Virus record (IMG/VR): IMGVR_UViG_3300047470_000079
Location: 1-25,664 of that record
Origin: a virus
Reading direction: 5' to 3' (one strand)
Length of the DNA stretch: 25,664 nucleotides
Part shown: positions 611 to 19,686 of the stretch, piece by piece
How the letters are laid out: every line of letters begins with the position of its first letter
Position numbering within the stretch: position 1 is the stretch's first letter
The notes under the pieces: generated by a model
Told to the model about the DNA's origin: nothing
The model's input: the letters and a program-made list of their open reading frames with translations, nothing else
Database searches by the model: none
Program-made: the position numbers and the translations under genes

Positions 611-1795
611 TTAACCGTAAGCGTCGACGCTATCGAAAGCGCCTGCGCCAGTGACGTTGTTGTATCCACCTTCGAGACCCGGCATAGGCGTGGAGGTGTT
701 ATTGAACCCGCCAAGCTTGCCGATAATGCCCGCACCAGACGCTGCGCCACCGAGGGCACCTTGGATACCCGAGGAGACCGGCGAGGAGACCTGACCTGCC
801 ACACCCGTGCCACCGTAGGAACCGTTGATGATCTTCATGTACTTCTGGAGGAGGTCGAGGTTGGTGTTCTGACCTTCGTAGTACTGGTCCTTGTTGGCGT
901 CGAGGTTCGCTTGGTCGTTGGTCTGATAAATGTTGCCAGCACCAGTGAGTTGGTCGAAGTTGTTGCCGTTGGCCTGTTGAGCAGCCGTGAGGGAACCCAC
1001 GCCTTGACCATACGCCGTACCAAGTTGCTGGTTGACGTTGCTGCGGAGGGCCTGCTGTGTGTTGTACTGGGATTGAGCCGTACTGAGGCCTGTGTTGAAC
1101 AGGTTGCTACGGATGCTCGAGGAAATGTCAGCGAGACGGTCCGAGGCACCACGCTCTGCGATACCTTGGGCCACCCCGGTACGTGAGGAATTCAGGTTAC
1201 CCGAGCCGGTAGCCGCGAGATTCAACGCAGGGAGTGTATTTTCATTCAGGTTCCGCACGGTGTCCCTAGAGGCTGCATCGATCATCGAGTCAGCGTAGGG
1301 GCTGTTGGCGTACTGGTTGGCCGTATTCAGGAAATTCTGAGTCTGGTCCGTACCAGCTTGGTCAAATACCGACTGTGCGTTATTGCCGAACTGCTGACCG
1401 AAGCCAAGCATCGAGCTACCACTGCCGTACAGACCATTGGCGATGTTCTGACCTTGGTTCCCTGCGAACGCTGCGGTACTGTTGGCGCCTTGAGTGGTGT
1501 ACGGATTGAGACCAGCTACGCGCGGGCCTGTGTAGGCGCCCGTGGTGGCATCATTCAGGAAGCCTTGGGCCTTATCGTACCCTTGGGTGATGTAAGGCTG
1601 CGCCTTGGACCACGGGGAATTGACATCTGCTTGCTGCTGTTGAGCACCCTTGGCCGAACTATCGTCTCCGAAGATGCTCCCTACTGCACCAATCGCTGCG
1701 GAGCCGAGGCTTGCCGTGATCGGATCAATGCCGTACTTACGGCCAATCCCCGGAGCAAGGGAAGGCACGAGCATCCTGAGGATTGCTTTGAACAT
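611..1795 (-). CDS. putative internal virion / DNA-ejection protein
   Basis: This 394-aa protein is rich in Gly, Ala, Ser, Asn and Gln. A short hydrophobic stretch near residues 27-43 (ITASLGSAAIGAVGSIFG) is followed by a long low-complexity region with many Gln/Asn, and a Gly-rich C-terminus. There are no cysteines and no enzyme motifs. This composition is common in podophage proteins that leave the capsid with the DNA and help it cross the envelope. The start overlaps the stop of the acetyltransferase gene as TAATG, indicating translational coupling, and the gene lies inside the leftward virion cassette. It could be the counterpart of a T7 internal core protein such as gp14, but I see no direct sequence match; the role rests on composition and neighbours. 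Confidence 0.75.
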   Translation of the reverse strand: MFKAILRMLVPSLAPGIGRKYGIDPITASLGSAAIGAVGSIFGDDSSAKGAQQQQADVNSPWSKAQPYITQGYDKAQGFLNDATTGAYTGPRVAGLNPYTTQGANSTAAFAGNQGQNIANGLYGSGSSMLGFGQQFGNNAQSVFDQAGTDQTQNFLNTANQYANSPYADSMIDAASRDTVRNLNENTLPALNLAATGSGNLNSSRTGVAQGIAERGASDRLADISSSIRSNLFNTGLSTAQSQYNTQQALRSNVNQQLGTAYGQGVGSLTAAQQANGNNFDQLTGAGNIYQTNDQANLDANKDQYYEGQNTNLDLLQKYMKIINGSYGGTGVAGQVSSPVSSGIQGALGGAASGAGIIGKLGGFNNTSTPMPGLEGGYNNVTGAGAFDSVDAYG

Positions 1796-2247
1796 TAGAG
1801 TAATACCTTGGTGTAGACAGCCCCACTCTTCCGGTAGCGCAGGCGCTTGAAGACGGAACCACGGTCCAGGTTGTCCTGAGTGCTGACGACAGCCTTCTTC
1901 ACCCCTGCTTCACGCATGCGATCTTCGGCATAGCGGAACAGGTGAACCCCAAGCCAACCTTGGCGGTACTCGGGGAGGATGAAGTAGGAGTCGTTGAAGC
2001 AGAACAGGGAGGACGCGTGATGCGGGTGACGGCTGAGTAGATTCTTGCTATACCCTATGAGCTTCCCGTTATCTCGCACCGTGACAAACAGGAGGATTCC
2101 TGAGGTCTCAGCAGCGAGGTAAAAGGCCTCGTTGAGGAAGAAGGGGATTTCAGCTTGGTCGTAGGCGATCTCTGAGTAGTGTTGCTCCCACAGGGGACGC
2201 ATCTCTTCGACGGCTTCACTCCACTTCTCAACTTGGTAGCTAATCAT
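1795..2247 (-). CDS. GNAT-family N-acetyltransferase
   Basis: This 150-aa protein has the layout of a GNAT acetyltransferase, which moves an acetyl group from acetyl-CoA to an amine. A central strand (about residues 84-92, CFNDSYFIL) leads into PEYRQGWLGVHLF (92-104), matching the Q/R-x-x-G-x-G/A acetyl-CoA pyrophosphate loop, then a helix and the strand KKAVVST (117-123). The C-terminal segment VFKRLRYRKSGAVYTKVL resembles the usual GNAT 'F-x-x-x-G-Y' end. Its length is typical. It sits between a small virion-cassette gene and the internal-virion-like gene and overlaps the latter as TAATG. Acetyltransferases in phage virion cassettes are known, but their targets mostly are not; the substrate here cannot be told. 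Confidence 0.85.
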   Translation of the reverse strand: MISYQVEKWSEAVEEMRPLWEQHYSEIAYDQAEIPFFLNEAFYLAAETSGILLFVTVRDNGKLIGYSKNLLSRHPHHASSLFCFNDSYFILPEYRQGWLGVHLFRYAEDRMREAGVKKAVVSTQDNLDRGSVFKRLRYRKSGAVYTKVLL

Positions 2248-2266
2248 AGGGGTGTTACTCTCTGTT

Positions 2267-2425
2267 TTAAGGTACGTGTCCGCCTATCTGCTCGAGGGCT
2301 GCCACGAGAGACTGAATGGTCCGCTCCAATTTCTTCAGTTCCTCAGTGAGAAAGAGGACCTGCGATTGGGGATTAGTCGGAACACTCGAGCGGACATACT
2401 TGGTGATGGGGGTGGTGTAGATCAT
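2267..2425 (-). CDS. small hypothetical protein in the virion cassette
   Basis: A 52-residue frame (starts MIYTTPITKY, ends EQIGGHVP) begins at 2425, with its ATG overlapping the TGA of the 571-aa hub-like gene as ATGA. It fills the gap before the acetyltransferase gene, 19 bases downstream. Residues 20-45 (VLFLTEELKKLERTIQSLVAALEQI) form an amphipathic helix with leucine spacing that suggests a short coiled coil. There is no signal peptide or membrane segment. The overlap and the neat fit in a tight operon are the main evidence that it is real. A small tail or assembly accessory role is plausible but unproven. Confidence 0.65.
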   Translation of the reverse strand: MIYTTPITKYVRSSVPTNPQSQVLFLTEELKKLERTIQSLVAALEQIGGHVP

Positions 2426-4137
2426 CGGCGACTCAATGTCTTGATGTCGAAGTCCATACCTGAGAACTGGAAGTTACTGATCGATGCCGTGCTCACCTTG
2501 TAGGCGAGGTAGCGGCCTGCGACCATCATGTCCAGCTTGTACTCTTCGGCAGGGTTATACGTCGAACTCGACCGGTACACTGCAGCTTGCTTAGGGAGAT
2601 CCGCAGACCCTACTTCGAACGTGAAGACACCCGTGGAATCCTCAAAGGAACACTGAGGCACCAGAGACTGCACGAGCTTGTACCCTCGGAGGGTCGTAGG
2701 CAGCCCTGCGTTATCCAGGTCGATCCCTACCCGCTCCACATAGGCAGGCTTGAGGACCTCTTGGTTCGCGGGGAGATTAACCAACCCTGCGGTCGGGAGA
2801 TCCACAGCGAATACTCGGGTATCTGTGACCCCTGCGTTCTGATCGGCAACCGAGAGCATGATGGGCATCTTCGGGGTGATCCCGAGGAAGCTTGTGTAGC
2901 TCGTGTTATACAGTTCGTAGGTATCCGTGACATCCGGGAAGGAGTTCTTCACCAGTGCAGCGTTGGCCTCGGCTCCCCCAATGATGTTCGGGAGATCCAT
3001 GAAGGACCAAGTGTCGTTCTTGTAGTTGTAGATCGCAGCTTGGTTACAGAAGTCAGCATTGACGAACGCTGCTTCATCCTGCAGGGTCGGGTAGCAGAAG
3101 TGGACCAAGTTGGCGACCGAGTCATGGACCACGAAGCACGAGGTCTGACGGGTGCGGTCCAAGGTGTTGTAGATCGTCCGGCGAACACGGCTGTCACTGA
3201 TGGAGTTCTTAGCGAGACCATCGTGGACATAGATATCGTTCTCACCGAAGACGAAGTGCTTACCCTCGATCTCAACGACACAGTTCGTGTTGATGATCCC
3301 GCCTTCGAAGGGAGCCTTACGGAACCCAAAGACTGCAGAGTCCCCGCGATATTCCACGTTCCACACTTGGGACTGGTTGTAGACCACGAAGCTGCTGCCG
3401 AGGACCAGACCATCACGGATAGGCGAGCGCATCTCAGAGATTACGTTCTCACCCGCCACGAAGTTAGGATTCGAAGGGTCCCAATTGATCGTCGAGATTG
3501 CAGCCCCGTACTGGATCGGGTTAGACCACTTGAACATCGTGGGGTACTTCACCCCGTTCTTGTTCAGGTTCATCATGATGGCGAAGTCCAGGAACGGACG
3601 GACCACCGCTGCTTGATCTGTGGCTACCCAGTCACCACCAATCTGTGAGTACAGGGGGTCATTGTTCGGGATGTTCCGGACGTAGGGCCTCATGCCCTGA
3701 CGGGCCAAGAAGGAGATCCCTGCGACCTGACAGTGGGACCAAGGGTTATCGTTGGTTACCGTGCCTGAACTAGGGGTAAGGAACGTGAGGTTATTGTTTG
3801 GGTACGCACGTACGGTACCGTCTCGATCACATACGAAGACTGCTTCCCCGATCTGGGCGTCGGCATAAGAGCCAACGAAACGAGCAAGCGTAGAGCTACC
3901 ACCTTCAGCCGAGTCATAGGGATTCGTGTTGGCATCGTAGGTACCCGGGGCCGTGTCATACGTGAGGGCTGACCGAATAGGATTGAACAGTTGCTTGAAC
4001 ACAGGAGCACGGGTAATCCGGTCCTCATCGAAGATGACGTTGTTCGCGGCAGAGAAAGCATTAGGCGGGAGGTCGTACGGGTTGGCATCAGTGATGACCC
4101 CCACGCCCCCAAGCTTCCGAAGCGGGAGAGTCGGCAT
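2422..4137 (-). CDS. tail hub / tail tubular protein B-like virion protein
   Basis: This 571-aa protein begins MPTLPLRKLGGVGVITDANP, followed by PYDLPPNAFSAANNVIFDEDRITRAP. A short N-terminal motif announcing Pro-Tyr-Asp-Leu-Pro-Pro and then 'N-V-x-F' is common in podophage tail hub (tubular B) and P22-type stabilisation proteins. The rest is mainly short beta strands (for example QVWNVEYRG and DTWSFMDLPNI) in the style of a beta-propeller. T7 gp12 is longer (about 790 aa), so this would be a compact version. It lies directly after the two tail-tip genes and overlaps the next small gene. The hub role is inference from N-terminal pattern, size and position; a general virion structural role is more secure. 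Confidence 0.7.
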   Translation of the reverse strand: MPTLPLRKLGGVGVITDANPYDLPPNAFSAANNVIFDEDRITRAPVFKQLFNPIRSALTYDTAPGTYDANTNPYDSAEGGSSTLARFVGSYADAQIGEAVFVCDRDGTVRAYPNNNLTFLTPSSGTVTNDNPWSHCQVAGISFLARQGMRPYVRNIPNNDPLYSQIGGDWVATDQAAVVRPFLDFAIMMNLNKNGVKYPTMFKWSNPIQYGAAISTINWDPSNPNFVAGENVISEMRSPIRDGLVLGSSFVVYNQSQVWNVEYRGDSAVFGFRKAPFEGGIINTNCVVEIEGKHFVFGENDIYVHDGLAKNSISDSRVRRTIYNTLDRTRQTSCFVVHDSVANLVHFCYPTLQDEAAFVNADFCNQAAIYNYKNDTWSFMDLPNIIGGAEANAALVKNSFPDVTDTYELYNTSYTSFLGITPKMPIMLSVADQNAGVTDTRVFAVDLPTAGLVNLPANQEVLKPAYVERVGIDLDNAGLPTTLRGYKLVQSLVPQCSFEDSTGVFTFEVGSADLPKQAAVYRSSSTYNPAEEYKLDMMVAGRYLAYKVSTASISNFQFSGMDFDIKTLSRR

Positions 4138-4139
4138 TG

Positions 4140-4694
4140 TTATACCTTCATGATGTAGGCCAAGGCCATGTACGGAGGCAGCGAGGTATGCTGATGATCA
4201 CCCACGAGGTTCGCAGTGTGCGTATGGTTCGCAGGAGCAGAGACAGCCGTGACAGCAGTAGCGCCTGTACCAGACTGGACAGCATTCAAGGTAACCCCAG
4301 GGGCACCCGCAGTTGCACCGTTGATCGTGTGAGTGTGTGACCCTGCCATCCCGGTACTCGAGGAGCCACCTATGGTTCCCACAGGGTTATCCGTGGTGTT
4401 GGCACCATAGACAAACTTCTTACGGAGATCCGGGGTCCCATTGGTACCATCACAGAGCGCATAGCCTGCAGGGATAGCCACGATGGCTCCCGACCACATC
4501 AAGATCACTCCCACGGGTACCGGGGAATTCAATTGGGCAGGGGTACTTGTGACGGGACCGTCCAGGTTCGGGAAGGTGTTCTTGAGGGCTGCCTTGATGG
4601 TTCTGAGGTGATCGTCCGACTGAGAGACACTATCGGTACTCAGGGGATTCGCAGGGTTAAGCTGGTTGATGTAATTGGCGGTTTCGAGTGGCAT
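4140..4694 (-). CDS. tail collar-domain / receptor-tip protein (paralog B)
   Basis: This 184-aa protein has an N-terminal helical region (1-50, with PANPLSTDSVSQSDDHLRTI) and then a collar-type segment near 60-95: PVGVILMWSGAIVAIPAGYALCDGTNGTPDLRKKF. The second half is Gly/Ala/Thr-rich with three His-x-His motifs (SHTH, NHTH, DHQH) and ends PPYMALAYIMKV. Collar domains occur in short tail fibre proteins such as T4 gp12. In T4 gp37, HxH pairs bind iron along the fibre tip that contacts the receptor. It is clearly related to the 243-aa protein just upstream, so the pair arose by duplication. It is short for a complete fibre, so it may be a tip attached to the tail through its N-terminus. Confidence 0.85.
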   Translation of the reverse strand: MPLETANYINQLNPANPLSTDSVSQSDDHLRTIKAALKNTFPNLDGPVTSTPAQLNSPVPVGVILMWSGAIVAIPAGYALCDGTNGTPDLRKKFVYGANTTDNPVGTIGGSSSTGMAGSHTHTINGATAGAPGVTLNAVQSGTGATAVTAVSAPANHTHTANLVGDHQHTSLPPYMALAYIMKV

Positions 4695-4700
4695 CTGTAT

Positions 4701-5432
4701 TTACACCTTCATGATGTAGTAGAGGGCGTAGTACGGATTCCGGATATCGATAGCCGCCCCACCGCCTGCGTTGTCAATAGCGAGGACGTGACTGTGTGCC
4801 CCGTTGACCGAGGAGTTGACCGAGAAGAAGTGACTGTGGGCACCTGCGGGATTCGTGGGGTTCTGGAATCGTCCCGACGAATACCCAGTGGATACGGCTA
4901 CGTTGGCGCCGCCATTGTCCGAACCTGCCTGTACCGAGCCGTTATTGGGGAGACTGTGCTGGTGGTCGCCCACGTCTGACGTATTCCCCTGCACTAGGTG
5001 ATTATGGTCACCCAAAGTATCCGAGTGTCCCGAGTGGTTATGCACGGGCATCTGGGACTGGGACAAGGTGATGAAGGGGGCACCACCTGAAGCAGTAAGG
5101 CCGTAGGAATTCCCTGCGCCGACGATAAACCTATCGACCAGATTGGGGGTGATGATATTCCCCGCACCATCACTACGTGCAACAGTCTGACCATTACACA
5201 ACGCCCACCCCGCAGGGATAGAGGGTTGTGCCCACATAATGATCCCGCCAACAGGCATCAGGGTATTAAGTTGGGCTTGGTTCCAATTCACTGCACCCGA
5301 GAGATTCGGGAAGGTATTCTTCAGGGTCGTCTTAATGAGACGGATATGGTCATCTGCAAATGCAATGGCATCTGAGCCAAGAGGATTAGCAGGTACGAGA
5401 CCGTCGATATAAGTAGCGGATTCTAATGCCAT
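4701..5432 (-). CDS. tail collar-domain / receptor-tip protein (paralog A)
   Basis: This 243-aa protein is the first gene of the leftward virion cassette. Its N-terminus (MALESATYIDGLVPANPLGS, then DDHIRLIKTTLKNTFPNLSG) aligns with paralog B, and PVGGIIMWAQPSIPAGWALCNGQ is the collar-type core. The C-terminal half carries five His-x-His motifs (HNH, HNH, HQH, HSH, HSH) in Gly/Asn/Ser-rich sequence, and the end NPYYALYYIMKV matches the end of paralog B. Known families suggest a trimeric, metal-stabilised tip that touches the host surface. About 55 more residues than B lie in the variable, His-rich half, so the two may recognise different receptors. The start at 5432 follows the non-coding control region. 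Confidence 0.85.
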   Translation of the reverse strand: MALESATYIDGLVPANPLGSDAIAFADDHIRLIKTTLKNTFPNLSGAVNWNQAQLNTLMPVGGIIMWAQPSIPAGWALCNGQTVARSDGAGNIITPNLVDRFIVGAGNSYGLTASGGAPFITLSQSQMPVHNHSGHSDTLGDHNHLVQGNTSDVGDHQHSLPNNGSVQAGSDNGGANVAVSTGYSSGRFQNPTNPAGAHSHFFSVNSSVNGAHSHVLAIDNAGGGAAIDIRNPYYALYYIMKV

Positions 5433-6177: not shown

Positions 6178-6206
6178 TTGCACAACACTGTGTGTTCCTA
6201 TATATT
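6178..6206 (+). promoter_or_regulatory. sigma70-type early promoter
   Basis: TTGCAC (-35, 6178-6183) and TATATT (-10, 6201-6206) are separated by exactly 17 bases, and transcription would start near 6213. The first early gene starts at 6249, giving a leader of about 35 bases. This is the best host-type promoter before the early cluster. The -35 is embedded in the recurrent TTGCACAAC element. Confidence 0.65.
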
Positions 6207-6427: not shown

Positions 6428-6664
6428 ATGATCCTATATCAATCCCAAGCTAACGCCGTCGCACAATCAATGTGGGCGTTAAATAATGTGCATGCAGTTG
6501 TGGACGTTCGAATCGTCTTAGATGACGAAGGGGAATACATCAGGGTCCGGGAGTCGGACGTTACAGGGGAAGTGATCGTAAAGCATTACAAGAGAGGTAA
6601 TGCGGGCGCCCGTGAGGTCTATACCAATCAGGATGCATTCCTTACCGCGTACAACCTAGCGTAA
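6428..6664 (+). CDS. hypothetical early protein
   Basis: This 78-aa soluble protein begins MILYQSQANAVAQSMWALNN and has no cysteine, signal peptide or membrane segment. The middle (VDVRIVLDDEGEYIRVRESD) looks like paired beta strands, followed by a basic patch (VKHYKRGNAGAREVY). It starts 17 bases after the small membrane-protein gene and shares its transcript. GGGGAAACC before the ATG is a weak ribosome site. The sequence after its stop holds the hammerhead ribozyme, so its mRNA would be cut just downstream. I do not recognise a family. Confidence 0.6.
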   Translation: MILYQSQANAVAQSMWALNNVHAVVDVRIVLDDEGEYIRVRESDVTGEVIVKHYKRGNAGAREVYTNQDAFLTAYNLA

Positions 6665-6732
6665 CCAGAGGAACCCTGTGCAAATAAGTTTAAATAACAG
6701 TTGCACACCTCTGCACAACACACAGTAGGATA

Positions 6733-6788
6733 GGTCGAAACCCTCTTAAACATGAGGGTCTACGGGTAACGCCCGTACTGATGAGACC
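6733..6788 (+). ncRNA. type II hammerhead ribozyme
   Basis: All core elements of a hammerhead self-cleaving RNA are present in the order of the type II form (open end at stem II). Stem II left strand GGTC is at 6733-6736 and GAA at 6737-6739. Stem III is ACCCTC (6740-6745) with GAGGGT (6754-6759) around an 8-base loop. The cleavage base is C6760 in the triplet GTC. Stem I is TACGGG (6761-6766) with CCCGTA (6772-6777) around TAACG. The invariant CTGATGA is at 6778-6784, and the stem II right strand GACC is at 6785-6788. Cleavage is expected between 6760 and 6761. It lies in the 145-base gap between two early genes, 21 bases before the next ATG, so it would split the early transcript and leave a 5'-OH end 49 bases upstream of that gene. 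Stem II is short (4 pairs), so activity in the cell needs testing. Confidence 0.9.
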
Positions 6789-6809
6789 AACGAAACCAAG
6801 GACCAAGCC

Positions 6810-7016
6810 ATGAAAATCGTTACGACCTGCCCTATCACGCAACGTGCCCTGTATGTCTCGGATATTAAACCTCGCCTCATCCAGCGGGGTGCCAAAGGTG
6901 ACTGGGGATACAGCACGAAAGCAGAACAAGCCGTAGATATGGGTGTTGCGTGTACCGATGCATGTCTTCGCGATATGCGGGCTACTGGTCGTAAGCCTGT
7001 TGTTATCGGGGGCTAA
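6810..7016 (+). CDS. hypothetical early protein downstream of the ribozyme
   Basis: This 68-aa protein starts MKIVTTCPITQRALYVSDIK and contains three cysteines: C7, and C48 and C52 in VACTDACL. A Cys-x3-Cys pair with an early Cys could bind metal, but the spacing is not a known zinc motif. The ATG at 6810 follows AACCAAGGACCAAGCC, with AAGGA as a possible ribosome site. After hammerhead cleavage its mRNA would begin at 6761, with stem I at the very 5' end. The next gene starts 4 bases after its stop. No family recognised. Confidence 0.6.
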   Translation: MKIVTTCPITQRALYVSDIKPRLIQRGAKGDWGYSTKAEQAVDMGVACTDACLRDMRATGRKPVVIGG

Positions 7017-9086: not shown

Positions 9087-9161
9087 TGGCATACCTCGAC
9101 GGATTCGAACCGCCATCGCAAGGATTTGGAGTCCTGCATCTTACCGTTGGACTAGAGGCAT
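9087..9161 (-). tRNA. tRNA-Trp (anticodon CCA)
   Basis: The minus strand folds as a complete tRNA. The acceptor stem is ATGCCTC with GAGGTAT (one G-T), followed by discriminator G and an encoded CCA. The D arm has loop CAACGGTAA. The anticodon stem is CAGGA with TCCTT (4 of 5 pairs) and loop CTCCAAA, giving anticodon CCA for UGG. The variable loop is GCGAT, and the T arm is GGCGG-TTCGAAT-CCGTC. It lies 60 bases beyond the stop of the endonuclease VII-like gene, probably on the same leftward transcript. Length is 75 bases with CCA. Phage tRNAs can supply scarce tRNAs or replace host tRNAs cut by defence nucleases. Confidence 0.92.
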
Positions 9162-9221: not shown

Positions 9222-9626
9222 TCACCGGAGGTACTCACTCATTCGAGCGAGAATAGTTTGGTCATCGAATACATGACCTAAAGCTGTGTTGCAATGGAAG
9301 CAGAGTATGCCTCGCACCTTCCCTGTCGTGTGACAGTGGTCGACACAAGGCTCATTACCCGCTCGCACATCTTTCGCCTTCAGGTTTGCACCATCAAACG
9401 TTACTTCTGCACTGCAGATTGCACACCGCCCTTGTTGCCTCTCATACATCCGAGAGAAGTCCGCAAGGGTAATACCGTACTGTCTTTTCAAATGCTTGTT
9501 GCGGTAGCTTCTGAGTCGAGCTTTGCCTGACCCATCCGTGCATGTGTAGCACGAGACGCGATTATGTGAGCCACGCCCCGGCTTCTTCTCGTAGGCATCC
9601 CCGCAGAATTCGCAGGAATGGTTCAT
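9222..9626 (-). CDS. endonuclease VII-family nuclease
   Basis: This 134-aa protein matches the recombination endonuclease VII family (T4 gp49), a zinc beta-beta-alpha-metal nuclease that resolves branched DNA and also occurs as mobile HNH-type genes. Visible parts are an N-terminal Cys4 site (C5, C8, C26, C29), YGITLADFSRMYERQQGRCA (50-69), a CAIC pair (C68, C71), the catalytic DHCHTTGKVRGILC (96-109) and FHCNTALGHVFDD (110-122) with C112 and N113. I chose the ATG at 9626 because it overlaps the reductase stop as ATGA and leads straight into the zinc site; a longer start at 9653 is possible. It could resolve replication intermediates before packaging or be a selfish nuclease next to the reductase gene; the overlap favours co-translation. 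Confidence 0.88.
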   Translation of the reverse strand: MNHSCEFCGDAYEKKPGRGSHNRVSCYTCTDGSGKARLRSYRNKHLKRQYGITLADFSRMYERQQGRCAICSAEVTFDGANLKAKDVRAGNEPCVDHCHTTGKVRGILCFHCNTALGHVFDDQTILARMSEYLR

Positions 9627-11605
9627 CGGATTGGGCAACTCCCATTGACGCACTCATCTTCAAGAACAGCATCGAGGTTGTCGGTGCCTTCGTTAAGGTT
9701 GATGTGCTGTAGGCCAGCAACGTAGGCGTCATAGACGTCCTTAGTCACTACTGCCTGAGGCAGATACTTATACCCGAGGTCTTCAGCAGACTTCGTGGGG
9801 TCAGCACGGAAGAGGAACGAGACGCCCACATAGGACTCCCAGTTATCCATCAGCCAATCAACGATTGCAGGAACTTCGTCCACGCTATAGCTGATCGTTG
9901 CGGATACGTTTTGGTCGCACCAGTGCGTCATCAACATCTTGTATCTTTCGAGTTGCTCAAGGGCAGTCTCAAGATTTACTTCCATCTCGACACCGTTCTT
10001 GACCACTGTTGAGAATGGCACGGTATCCCATGCAACCGGGAGTGTGATCAGGACCGCTTCGTCATCCGTAGGGTTCGGGATAACCTTGTAGCCCGCGCTG
10101 CGACACAGAGGGACCAGGGGGTCATACTTACCAAAGTTGACGCTGTTGAAGATGTACTTGCCCAAAGGAGCGTGCAAACCCTCGGTACAGTCCATGACCT
10201 TCGACAGAGTTCCCGAAGGCTTCACCGTGGTTACGTTCTTGGGACGCGGGGTGCCAAGTTCATCAGCCATAGAGTAGGCTGCTGCGTGGGCTGTGCGGCG
10301 AAGCTCGATGAAGTCATAAGGCTTCATGTCGGGGCGCATCACGATACCCGTCAGACCTACTCCACATAGGCGGAGGAAGTCGTTGCCTCGGTGCCACGAT
10401 TCTTGAAGGATCCCGTCGCGGAGGTCTACACAAGTCTGACGGTAATTTGCGCGAGCGGCTAACTGAATAGCCCTACGAAGGCCATCAGAGTCTCCAGCAA
10501 ACTTACCAACATCGACCTCAGTCAGATTACAGAAGCTCTTATTACCTAGCAGGATCTCCGCACAGGGATTCACACCCTTAAACCACGGGGCACGAGCGGT
10601 TGCAGCTTGGCCATTGATAAACCCTGGCTCGCTACCACCTGACTCAACCATCAGATCGAAGATGTGTTGAAGCTCTGCGCGGCTCGGCTTCTGCTTGAAC
10701 AGTAGGGAGTTATTCGACTGCGCACGCTGGATGTTATTTACCCACCAGTCACGCTTTGCGGTTGTGAACTCTTGCCATTCGTCCTGACCATATTCGAAGA
10801 GAGCTATCTCTGCGCTGCGGCGGCTCGATAGAATTGTTCCAAGCCAATTGACGATATCGAGAATGTCAATTCGTGTGAGGAGGCTGCCAGCCCTGCGATT
10901 GAGGATGCCAAAGATTGCTCCAACAGCTTTGCATAGTGCTTCGTCACCTGAACTGACCCATCCGTATCCAGCAAGGCGTTCACCAGCCGGTCGGATAGCC
11001 GAGGTATCGAGTATAAATTTATCGGCGGCATATTGATGAGCGGCCAACTTACCGAGCGCTTTGGCCCAAGCTTCTGCTGAGTCACCGACACTGATTGTCC
11101 AGACGCCATCTTTGAAGGTCTCAACGTTGTGCTCACGACCACCCTTCTCGGTGCGCTCAGAGCGAATGAATTCGATTGTGGGGATACGCTTCTGGAAACC
11201 AGTAAGCTGACCAACGATGGGACTGAAGCCAACACCGCAACCCTGCAGCAAGAGCCACAGACAGTCGACGATATCCTGAACGGTCTCGACCTGGGTGAAG
11301 CTACAGTTGAACTGCGAGGCTTCACGCTTCTTTGCGACCTTGGTTCCCCCAAGCCACAGCGTGCGACCACTCATGAGAACCTTGCGGTCGATCATCAGTT
11401 GACGAAGCTCACCTAGTTCAGCAAGTTGGTTGTCGCTAATGTCATAGCCTGCCTTGTCAGCAGCGCGATCCCAAAGCCACATCTGATGCCCGACCACACG
11501 GTCAATCATTTCCTCGAAAGTCTCGAAGACTGTCCCCTCAGCATTCAGTGGTCGCTGGTAGGTTCGTCGGGCCACAAGCTGTGACCGAAGTGATGCGTTG
11601 CTCAT
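9623..11605 (-). CDS. nrdJ: adenosylcobalamin-dependent (class II) ribonucleotide reductase
   Basis: This 660-aa enzyme reduces ribonucleotides to deoxyribonucleotides for phage DNA synthesis using a B12 radical. It follows the monomeric class II pattern known from Lactobacillus leichmannii RTPR (about 740 aa). The thiyl-radical cysteine is in NPCAEI (C348) with E350 beside it. The redox pair is C101 (QFNCSF) and C359 (SFCNLTEV), and the C348-C359 spacing of 11 equals that of C408-C419 in RTPR. The C-terminal pair is in CVNGSCPIR (C652, C657). TTVKPSGTLSKVMDCTEG fits the phosphate-binding loop. No separate radical-generating subunit is needed or seen. A structured leader at 11661-11797 precedes the start, which has AGAGAG-type ribosome sites. 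It is the only minus-strand metabolic gene near the RNA polymerase gene. Confidence 0.95.
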   Translation of the reverse strand: MSNASLRSQLVARRTYQRPLNAEGTVFETFEEMIDRVVGHQMWLWDRAADKAGYDISDNQLAELGELRQLMIDRKVLMSGRTLWLGGTKVAKKREASQFNCSFTQVETVQDIVDCLWLLLQGCGVGFSPIVGQLTGFQKRIPTIEFIRSERTEKGGREHNVETFKDGVWTISVGDSAEAWAKALGKLAAHQYAADKFILDTSAIRPAGERLAGYGWVSSGDEALCKAVGAIFGILNRRAGSLLTRIDILDIVNWLGTILSSRRSAEIALFEYGQDEWQEFTTAKRDWWVNNIQRAQSNNSLLFKQKPSRAELQHIFDLMVESGGSEPGFINGQAATARAPWFKGVNPCAEILLGNKSFCNLTEVDVGKFAGDSDGLRRAIQLAARANYRQTCVDLRDGILQESWHRGNDFLRLCGVGLTGIVMRPDMKPYDFIELRRTAHAAAYSMADELGTPRPKNVTTVKPSGTLSKVMDCTEGLHAPLGKYIFNSVNFGKYDPLVPLCRSAGYKVIPNPTDDEAVLITLPVAWDTVPFSTVVKNGVEMEVNLETALEQLERYKMLMTHWCDQNVSATISYSVDEVPAIVDWLMDNWESYVGVSFLFRADPTKSAEDLGYKYLPQAVVTKDVYDAYVAGLQHINLNEGTDNLDAVLEDECVNGSCPIR

Positions 11606-12235: not shown

Positions 12236-14737
12236 ATGACTGAAATCGCGCTGAACTACGAAGCACAATCCGCCCTGGAAGAGCGTATGTTGGCCAAGGG
12301 TGCGGAGCGTTACGAAGGCAATGCTGAGTTTGCGCACTCCATGGGTGACCTGAGCAAGGCTGAAGAGCGCCTGTTTGAGAACGCATTACCGAAGATGGTC
12401 GAGGCTGTTCGTCTCGCTCACTTTGCGGAGTTGGAGAAGTCCCACCGTGGCGCTCACTTCAAGGCCATGGACAATCTGGACCACACCCTGCTGTCGGGGA
12501 TTGTGCTCAAGAATGCGTTCAATACTGCGACGAGCGAAGAGACCCTGACCTCTATGTATGAGGCCATTGGTTTCGAAGTCCGGGTAGCAATTGCGGCAGA
12601 GCGTCTGAAGAACGCAGACAAGAAGGCCCACAAGAAACTCATGGACCCCCGGATGAATCGGTCGGCCCGTGCGAAGCTTGAAGCTGCTGAGGCTCTGTTA
12701 GATCAGTTCCCGGAACCGGGTGTCGACGCTGACGCTATGGTCGGGATTGGTGCTGGATTGTTCTTCGTGGCGCAACAATCGACGAGCCTCTTCGAGCACT
12801 TCGAGAAGACCGACACGGACTCTGGTGAAATCCAGATGCGCCTTGGGTTCACCGAAGCTGCCCATGAGGCCCTGCAGAAAGCCAAGGATCGCCAGCAATG
12901 GACCACGCCTGTGTATCAGGCCATGCTCACGGTCCCGAACCCTTGGGTTGCCTTCGACACTGGTGCATACAATGATGTGCGTGTTGCCAAGACCGTGAAG
13001 ATTGCTAACACGTTCAATCCGATGACCAAGAAGCTGATCTCTGCAGCCATCGAAGGGAACGCTCCGTTCGTTGGTGCTCTCAATGGGATCCAAGAGGTTC
13101 CCCTGCGGATCAACCGCACGGTCCTCGAGGCCCTGACGTTCTGCCACGATATGCGTATCCCTGTGGGCAAGCTCCCGGGTCCCCGCAAGGCAGTCCCGAA
13201 GGATGCTGAAGACAAGGTGAAGTGGGGTATCCGCAAGGACAACAAGATTTCCAACGCGAAGCATGCGGTGGTGTCGAGGGACCTTGAGGAAGCCAAGCTC
13301 CTCGCTGATGTGGAACGCTTCTTTCAGCCCCACGTTCTGGACTGGCGTAGCCGTGTGTATGCAAAACCCGGCTTCAACCATCAACGTGCTGACTACTGCA
13401 AGGGTCTCTTTGAATTTGCAGATGGTGAGGTCCTGACACAGCGTGGCGTTACGTGGCTGATGTGGAACGTAGCGACGACTTTCGCTATCAAGATCGATGG
13501 TCGCGCTCTCGACAAGATGCCCTTCAGTCTCCGTGTCCAGTGGACCCAAGAGAACATTGAGATGATCAAGTCCGTAGCAAAGGACCCTATCGCCTCTATG
13601 GACGTCTGGAAGGTCGCGGACTCCCCGTTCTGCTTCCTCGCTGCTTGCGTGGCCTTGGCGGGCTATCTGAAGGACCCTACGGGCTATCGTTGCCACCTGC
13701 CTATCGCTATCGATGGTAGCTGCTCGGGTATCCAACACTTCTCGGCAATCATGCGGGACGCTGATGGTGGTGCCCTGGTCAACCTGATGCCCTCGGAACT
13801 CCCGCAGGATGTCTATGCGGCTGTCGCTGCTATCTCTGGTCCTCTGGTCGAAGCTGACCTGAATCACGAGGACGAGAAGATCCGAGGCTTTGCGCAACTG
13901 TGGCACTCCTACGGCATCGACCGTAAGGTGACCAAGCGTAACGTGATGACCTACGGGTACGGTTCGGAAGTCTCTGGCTTCGCTGACCAGTTATACGAAG
14001 ACATCATGGCTATCGATGATGAAAGCCGGGCACACTTTGGGGTCACCAAGGACAACTGGCTCGAGATGATGGAGGTAGCTCGCTATCTGGCGAACCACAA
14101 CATGACTGGCATCAAGCAGACCGTTAAGGGTGCCCCGCTTGTCATGGAACTCCTGAAGGCAATCGCTGGTGTTCTGGCGAAAGCTAACCTTCCGGTTCGC
14201 TGGACTACGCCTATGGGTTTCCCGGTGCTCAACGCTTACTACAAGCCGACCTTCCAACAGATCAAGACCCTGCTGTGGAACAAGGCCTTGAATGCGCCTA
14301 CGGCCTACAAGCCCAAGGTACAGACTGGGTTCTCCAAGGAGTTGAACGCCCACAAGCAACGTACCTCTATCAGCCCGAACTTCATCCACTCCTTCGATGC
14401 AGCACACCTTCAACTGGTCGTGCAGAACTCGAAGGCCGAAGGGATCCATAGCTTCTTATTGATCCATGACTCGTTTGCAGCCCTGCCGAACCAGATGGAC
14501 TCGTTCTCGATGATCGTGCGTAAAAGCTTGGTCGACATGTACGAAGGACGTGACCCCCTGGAAGACATCCTGCTGACGGCCCGTGCTGACCTTATCGTCA
14601 CCGGCGAGGCCACCCAGGATGAAGAGGGAGCGAAGAAGATCGCCAAGCTCATCAAGGAGTTAGACAAGCTTATGGTTCCCCCGCGTGGCACCTTGGACCT
14701 CAACAGCATCCTCGAGTCCCAATACGCTTTCGCTTAA
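12236..14737 (+). CDS. single-subunit DNA-dependent RNA polymerase (T7 gp1-like)
   Basis: This 833-aa polymerase transcribes phage genes from phage-specific promoters (T7 RNAP is 883 aa). Key parts are visible: motif A AIDGSCSGIQH with D493 (T7 D537), the O-helix DRKVTKRNVMTYGYGS with R563, K567 and Y575 (T7 R627, K631, Y639), motif C LIHDSFAALP with D745 (T7 D812), and a C-terminus ending YAFA, close to the T7 FAFA foot. In the specificity loop the four T7 promoter-contact positions (R746, N748, R756, Q758) appear replaced by Q, K, L and A, so it should use different promoters from T7. It has its own sigma70-type promoter, leader GGAGCAAGAC, and a terminator hairpin after its stop. Confidence 0.98.
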   Translation: MTEIALNYEAQSALEERMLAKGAERYEGNAEFAHSMGDLSKAEERLFENALPKMVEAVRLAHFAELEKSHRGAHFKAMDNLDHTLLSGIVLKNAFNTATSEETLTSMYEAIGFEVRVAIAAERLKNADKKAHKKLMDPRMNRSARAKLEAAEALLDQFPEPGVDADAMVGIGAGLFFVAQQSTSLFEHFEKTDTDSGEIQMRLGFTEAAHEALQKAKDRQQWTTPVYQAMLTVPNPWVAFDTGAYNDVRVAKTVKIANTFNPMTKKLISAAIEGNAPFVGALNGIQEVPLRINRTVLEALTFCHDMRIPVGKLPGPRKAVPKDAEDKVKWGIRKDNKISNAKHAVVSRDLEEAKLLADVERFFQPHVLDWRSRVYAKPGFNHQRADYCKGLFEFADGEVLTQRGVTWLMWNVATTFAIKIDGRALDKMPFSLRVQWTQENIEMIKSVAKDPIASMDVWKVADSPFCFLAACVALAGYLKDPTGYRCHLPIAIDGSCSGIQHFSAIMRDADGGALVNLMPSELPQDVYAAVAAISGPLVEADLNHEDEKIRGFAQLWHSYGIDRKVTKRNVMTYGYGSEVSGFADQLYEDIMAIDDESRAHFGVTKDNWLEMMEVARYLANHNMTGIKQTVKGAPLVMELLKAIAGVLAKANLPVRWTTPMGFPVLNAYYKPTFQQIKTLLWNKALNAPTAYKPKVQTGFSKELNAHKQRTSISPNFIHSFDAAHLQLVVQNSKAEGIHSFLLIHDSFAALPNQMDSFSMIVRKSLVDMYEGRDPLEDILLTARADLIVTGEATQDEEGAKKIAKLIKELDKLMVPPRGTLDLNSILESQYAFA

Positions 14738-19077: not shown

Positions 19078-19686
19078 ATGGAATTCATTGCATACCCCAA
19101 GACCCCGCGACTGAAGCGCGACATCGTCATCACCGAGAAGATCGACGGCACGAACGCACAGATCGTTATCACCAAGACAACCATCGAAGACTTCGGTTCC
19201 TCGGACGTGACCGCACTGCAGCCGCTGGAGATAGCGCAAGGCTGTCTGACGCTGCGCGTCGGTTCCCGCAATCGCTGGATCACCCCGAACGCCAACGGCA
19301 AGCAGACGGACAACTTCGGCTTCGCACAGTGGTGCTTCGAGAACCAAGAAGAACTCTTCAAGCTCGGCGAAGGCCAGCACTTCGGTGAATGGTACGGCGC
19401 TGGTATCCAAAGCACCTACGGCCTCGATCACAAGCGCTTTGCCCTGTTCAACACGGCTCGTTGGGGGGCACACAACCCGAACACCCCTGCGTGCGTCGAA
19501 ACGGTTCCTGTGCTCCTACAAGGCTCCATGGCAGATGTCGATGACGCCCTGCTCAGTCTCAAGGTACTCGGCTCGAAGGCTGTCCCCGGCTTCATGAAAC
19601 CCGAGGGAATCATCGTGTACCACACGGCCTCGAAGCAGAACTTCAAGGTGCTGCTGGAAAACGACGATCAACCTAAGGGGCTGTAA
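19078..19686 (+). CDS. RNA ligase-family nucleotidyltransferase
   Basis: This 202-aa protein carries the covalent nucleotidyltransferase motifs of ATP-dependent ligases. Motif I is EKIDGTNAQI with nucleophile K21. A motif Ia-like segment is VGSRNRWIT. YGLDHKRFALFNTARWG fits motif III, PEGIIVYH motif IV and NFKVLLEN motif V. The pattern is closest to the Rnl2-type RNA ligase domain (K-x-D/H-G-T-N) rather than T7 DNA ligase, and only the catalytic domain is present (a full T7 ligase is 359 aa). It may reseal RNA nicks, including cut tRNAs, or act as a DNA ligase in this phage; the sequence alone does not decide. It overlaps the next small gene as TAATG. Confidence 0.85.
   Translation: MEFIAYPKTPRLKRDIVITEKIDGTNAQIVITKTTIEDFGSSDVTALQPLEIAQGCLTLRVGSRNRWITPNANGKQTDNFGFAQWCFENQEELFKLGEGQHFGEWYGAGIQSTYGLDHKRFALFNTARWGAHNPNTPACVETVPVLLQGSMADVDDALLSLKVLGSKAVPGFMKPEGIIVYHTASKQNFKVLLENDDQPKGL

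Follow-up and report, generated by a model that had tools for sequence, protein, structure and literature searches.

What purpose would a self-cleaving RNA serve between two early genes of a T7-like soil phage? The question is raised by positions 6733-6788 of a 25.7-kb viral contig (25,664 nucleotides; "the window" below, meaning the whole stretch of DNA that was analysed), where an earlier note had recognized a type II hammerhead ribozyme and assigned to it the job that RNase III does in T7. The T7 early genes are transcribed by the host polymerase into one long RNA, which RNase III cuts between genes. Phage and bacterial hammerheads have been known in numbers since 2011, and what they are for has been a question from then on. 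Perreault et al. 2011 (PMC3088659) describe Hammerhead_II ribozymes that include prophage copies between genes, already suggest that these divide long phage RNAs into shorter messages, and note ardA beside hammerheads; a systematic use in T7-like early operons, with all three hammerhead types in an operon, does not figure in the passages of that paper drawn on here. A literature search joining hammerheads with Autographiviridae, podoviruses or pelagiphages, which excluded subscription journals and preprints so that earlier notice is possible, gave nothing relevant.

The window encodes a T7-like RNA polymerase (12236-14737, plus strand; phrog_414, E = 7e-179), the gene for which lies about 5.4 kb downstream of the ribozyme, together with a T7-type primase/helicase, endonuclease I, a family A DNA polymerase and a 5'-3' exonuclease; ThyX, a ribonucleotide reductase and an RNA ligase are also present. 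The T7-type polymerase and replication genes bear out the assignment to a T7-like phage, and the gene order, with the ribozyme upstream of the polymerase gene and on the same strand, bears out its placement in an early operon. The general layout calls for a correction: long minus-strand ORFs (611-5432), which are probably the tail genes, diverge from the plus-strand early genes, an arrangement unusual for T7-like phages. In T7 the tail genes are on the same strand as the rest, whereas here they would be on the opposite one, and the one-strand gene layout of T7-like phages is not found in the window. The RNA ligase gene (19078-19686; PF09414, E=9e-11) belongs to the replication region and lies in a segment missing from the aligned stretch of the related contig L002. 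A tRNA-Trp (anticodon CCA; ARAGORN) is located at 9087-9161 on the minus strand, within a minus-strand stretch beside the ribonucleotide reductase gene.

The nearest named phages are remote, with about 31% identity in the polymerase, and a DNA search for close named relatives returned only matches covering 1% of the window. A profile of the group's polymerases matched one bacterial genome, a Caballeronia temeraria contig, the polymerase of which is 85% identical to that of the sister lineage L178, itself 47% identical to that of the window. This match through a sister lineage hints weakly at a host among the Burkholderiaceae. The C. temeraria contig L371, which represents the same place as L265, has no intact hammerhead upstream of its polymerase gene.

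The ribozyme is flanked by two early genes on the plus strand, of 78 aa (6428-6664) and 68 aa (6810-7016), neither of which has a match in Pfam or PHROG. The ATG of the latter, at 6810, lies 21 bases past the ribozyme, as the earlier note had it, and is preceded by a ribosome-binding-like AAGGA (6798-6802). The element opens with GGTC (6733-6736), the 5' arm of stem II, which pairs with the 3' arm GACC (6785-6788) at its end, followed by the core GAA (6737-6739), which is invariant in the alignment of related copies. Stem-loop III (6740-6759) is formed by ACCCTC (6740-6745) and GAGGGT (6754-6759) around an 8-nt loop, and its closing A-U pair (6740/6759) adjoins the core. The hammerhead rule predicts cleavage between 6760 and 6761, after C6760 of the GTC triplet (6758-6760). 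Beyond this are stem-loop I (6761-6777; TACGGG at 6761-6766 and CCCGTA at 6772-6777, with the loop TAACG) and the catalytic core CTGATGA (6778-6784), which is kept in every copy except one (L007, see below). All hammerhead invariants, namely the NUH triplet, CUGAUGA and GAAA by stem III, are thus present, and the positions given for them earlier are correct to the base. The minimum-energy fold of 6733-6788 is exactly the hammerhead (-22.1 kcal/mol, z = -4.0), with stems I and III closed by loops and stem II open, which is the type II order; a descriptor of core plus stems found no match in 200 dinucleotide shuffles of the window.

A covariance search of the whole window against 4,227 Rfam families, a check that the note had named, matched Hammerhead_II (RF02276) to 6733-6795 at 33.1 bits (E = 0.003, or 7e-7 when only this model is searched); the tRNA was the sole other match. 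This score falls below the family's gathering cut-off of 37 bits, which is administrative and reflects no structural requirement; it is statistically clear nonetheless, and it renders the ribozyme invisible to routine automatic annotation. Relative to the RF02276 hammerheads as portrayed in the consulted parts of PMC3088659, the window copy shares the core, the circular order with stem II open and the placement between phage genes, but differs in its 4-bp stem II, its 5-nt loop I, its sub-cut-off score and the absence of a pseudoknot between loop I and the 3' tail, for which the longest complement is 2 nt. A ligand-controlled ribozyme was considered and rejected, as no extra domain is seen in the sequence.

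We found seven further distinct copies in related contigs, five near (L002, L004, L147, L148 and L157) and two diverged (L005 and L007), six of which are intact and one of which has a core change. All 16 pairs are kept in 8/8 sequences, such that 100% of the cells are paired, and two pairs have changed on both sides: the outermost pair of stem III is C-G in six copies and G-U in two, and the top pair of stem I is G-C in six and U-A in two. With eight related sequences this covariation amounts to modest evidence, the number of both-side-changed pairs being matched by a fifth of column shuffles and the overall score by none. Together, the Rfam match, the exact fold and the pairing kept in relatives sustain the type II assignment. 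One of the diverged copies (L005, 5071-5126) is an intact hammerhead directly after the stop codon of an ArdA gene, and has a GUA triplet, which is acceptable to hammerheads; the Rfam scan of that genome does not list it. The other (L007, 4738-4793) keeps all stems and has ATGATGA in place of CTGATGA, making it a probably catalytically dead copy and a natural negative control. In L008, a close relative, the hammerhead is missing, which along with the decay in L007 indicates that the ribozyme is not essential. When one core mismatch was allowed in a type II search of the hammerhead-less loci, only the L007 copy, which is decayed, and a single poor match came up. No hammerhead is reported in the relatives at the Rfam gathering threshold, implying that this threshold hides them.

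These observations bear on whether the element might be an ornament or a decaying remnant that either does not cut or cuts without consequence. The sub-threshold score, the lost core C of L007 and the lack of a pseudoknot for loop I would fit such decay, but the core is intact in 7/8 local copies with its pairing kept, the placement across phages is sense-only and boundary-only (see below), and according to the relevant passage of PMC3088659 only some 40% of hammerheads are predicted to have a pseudoknot. We accordingly regard a remnant as quite improbable.

Among the relatives of the window, the ribozyme persists while the genes on both sides are swapped. About 90 bases are kept between unrelated genes in the window, L002 and L004; identity to L002 is 95% in the 20 bases before the ribozyme and 25% in the preceding 20. 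The conserved part includes a box, TGCACAACACACAGTAGGATA (6712-6732), which is common to L002, L004 and L148 and partly to L147, and does not stand before the copies of L005 and L007. An ArdA anti-restriction gene (PF07275) precedes the ribozyme in L004 and L005, and the corresponding gene of L002 is ArdA-like, just below the cut-off. Positions 6701-6732 of the window resemble a fusion of the two boxes that flank the ArdA-like gene in L002 (4065-4600). The window is probably an L002-like arrangement that has lost the ArdA-like gene by recombination between two GCACAACAC boxes. T4-type phages reportedly possess "mobile regulatory cassettes" of promoter and stem-loop, proposed to serve accessory-gene exchange; in these as in the window, exchangeable accessory genes are separated by a short conserved regulatory island, but here the island is a ribozyme and the box before it is no demonstrated promoter. 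The kept island and the apparent gene loss could suggest that the ribozyme is retained mainly as a recombination-prone site for exchanging accessory early genes. We rate this as very improbable, since recombination needs neither an intact catalytic core nor sense orientation, and copies within one phage, and between groups, differ in type and sequence and share position.

Two promoter candidates immediately upstream were also discarded. Although TGCACAACACACAGTAGGA is similar to the end of a T7-type promoter, a phage-polymerase promoter before the ribozyme was dropped because the 44.7-kb relative G001 shows no second occurrence of the motif and the copies of L005 and L007 are not preceded by it. 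Of a sigma-70 promoter directly before the ribozyme, only the -35 half is left in the window. A sigma-70-like candidate for the early genes is found further upstream (6179-6206, plus strand, 9/12 match), and its TTGCAC-17-TATATT recurs in L007 and L008; by count, such candidates in the window are no more numerous than expected by chance. In L002 and L004, a sigma-70 promoter is clear ahead of the gene upstream of the ribozyme.

Is the position of the window ribozyme a local accident or a rule? We scanned 145 viral loci with a T7-like RNA polymerase, of which all but the added phage HTVC109P were gathered by polymerase similarity, for hammerheads of types I, II and III; the scan covered at most 8 kb ahead of the polymerase gene and all the downstream DNA available. 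The 145 loci display 121 hammerheads, every one of them in sense and ahead of the polymerase gene; the antisense strand of these loci gave none, nor did the 891 kb of DNA that follow the polymerase gene or three rounds in which the loci were shuffled. Many of the contigs are near-copies, and the 121 matches reduce to 70 sequences that differ from one another (26 of type I, 26 of type II and 18 of type III). The distance from the upstream stop codon to the start of the hammerhead has a median of 5 nt for these 70, as against 151 for random positions, and only 1/70 lies inside a long ORF as against 182/350 random positions. A ribosome-site-plus-ATG motif follows within 150 nt in 70/70 (median 27.5 nt), a measure that is only supportive, given that the motif follows roughly one in three random positions within 60 nt. 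The inner stem positions show a wide variety of pair types across 80 distinct sequences, where variety rather than pairing counts as evidence, as the descriptor demands pairing. Because a ribozyme match brought the pelagiphage group into the sample, the proportion of carriers is no estimate of prevalence; the strand and upstream/downstream contrasts are unaffected by this. Hammerheads here thus fill one functional slot, the gaps between early genes. In three pelagiphage-like contigs (L319, L335 and L348), the early region ahead of the polymerase gene shows the types in the order III, III, II, I, which perhaps reflects common descent.

Named phages show the same pattern, and those cultured marine SAR11 phages (pelagiphages) that are carriers have 1-4 hammerheads each. 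The Pelagivirus isolate HTVC109P has three (type II at 563-621, type I at 1105-1164 and type II at 2325-2378); the remainder of its 41-kb genome has none. The annotated starts of its gp03 (589) and gp05 (1121) lie within the first two predicted ribozymes, and these start codons are probably misannotated. HTVC031P (L359), likewise a Pelagivirus isolate, has four (291-341, 1301-1361, 2070-2154 and 40979-41033), the last of which, a type III at the end of the record, would come just before gene 1 if the ends were joined. In the early genome part, HTVC168P has two, Eistla three and HTVC021P one, and none was detected in HTVC022P, HTVC201P, HTVC200P, HTVC119P and HTVC309P; HTVC019P has one weak candidate. 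At the gathering threshold, Rfam gives none in the first 20 kb of HTVC109P or in HTVC031P. Since HTVC109P, HTVC031P, HTVC168P and Eistla are cultured isolates with cultured hosts, the processing hypothesis is directly testable.

This pattern can be set beside phiYeO3-12, where RNase III sites are annotated in the gaps between early genes and ahead of the polymerase gene, and where no hammerhead was found. The T7/T3-type sites (phiYeO3-12 R0.3, R0.45 and R1) and the hammerheads lie alike between early genes, upstream of the polymerase gene and in sense, and both are expected to separate early messages. They differ in that RNase III sites are hairpins cut by a host protein to leave 5'-phosphate ends, whereas a hammerhead cuts itself and leaves a 5'-OH; RNase III sites also occur after the polymerase gene (phiYeO3-12 R1.1 and R1.3), where the scan of the 145 loci gave no hammerhead. 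Their occurrence in equivalent gaps makes protein-free cutting the most economical reading, and their position supports well a role in early-message processing in place of RNase III. We infer an early transcript over the window ribozyme, and think it likely that 6733-6788 is an active hammerhead that cuts this polycistronic RNA, with counterparts in many T7-like phages, where all three permutations would punctuate the early operons. Upon self-cutting between 6760 and 6761, the upstream message would receive a 2',3'-cyclic-phosphate end, and the downstream one would carry a 5'-OH and open with the stem I hairpin and a short leader that holds a ribosome site of its own. Such a built-in, host-independent site would be the functional counterpart of the RNase III sites of the T7 early region and could yield messages each with its own length and stability. 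Hammerheads of this kind may plausibly be active in cells, given the operon-processing proposal of Perreault et al. and, as reported in the part of PMC3088659 concerned, one prophage-type array from A. tumefaciens whose hammerheads cleave in E. coli.

If this holds, a textbook RNA processing step, the cutting of T7 early RNA by RNase III, is matched in other T7-like phages by one that needs no protein, and their early message maturation would be independent of host enzymes. Against processing count the sub-cut-off score, the patchiness among close relatives and the pelagiphages in which none was detected (HTVC022P, HTVC201P and HTVC309P); host RNase III is presumably available to these phages, leaving no obvious need for a ribozyme. 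An active ribozyme might instead serve to control decay, the cut speeding up or slowing down the turnover of the upstream or downstream message, with their separation a by-product. The 5'-OH end that a hammerhead cut leaves on the downstream RNA is a poor substrate for the 5'-monophosphate-dependent RNase E, and types II and III leave the stem I hairpin at that end, both of which would suit such a role. Type I copies in the same slots leave only a short leader devoid of this hairpin; a common stabilising structure is therefore not required, and we deem decay control as the main purpose unlikely. A wider version of early-message processing, in which several T7-like lineages, including SAR11 (Pelagibacter) phages, use hammerheads of all three permutations in place of host RNase III in their early operons, the 5'-OH ends alter RNA stability and the junctions act as fixed points for exchange of accessory genes (e.g., ArdA anti-restriction genes), strikes us as evenly balanced between right and wrong.

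On a tree built from 73 dereplicated polymerase rows, carriers lie in two widely separated regions, a soil group and the Pelagivirus group with its long-branch relatives L181 and L182; the enterobacterial T7-like clade (12 rows), to which phiYeO3-12 belongs, has no hammerheads. Their presence requires at least 12 changes of state, a number inflated by some rows scored as lacking them (e.g., L011) that have too little upstream DNA to judge, and hammerheads seem to have been gained and lost often among T7-like phages. Mesorhizobium phage Lo5R7ANS (L357), in which no hammerhead was found, has a putative RtcB gene (9397-10050) in its T7-like early region; RtcB is a ligase of the type that joins hammerhead-made ends.

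The earlier view that hammerheads are uncommon in phages did not hold up: among the matches listed, they are common in phage contigs and several phage loci carry 4-7 copies. Most of the hammerhead phage contigs tested show no T7-type polymerase, so that the T7-like early region is one use among others. Four phage contigs (L038, L069, L142 and L167) have 6-7 type II hammerheads each, mostly between consecutive genes.
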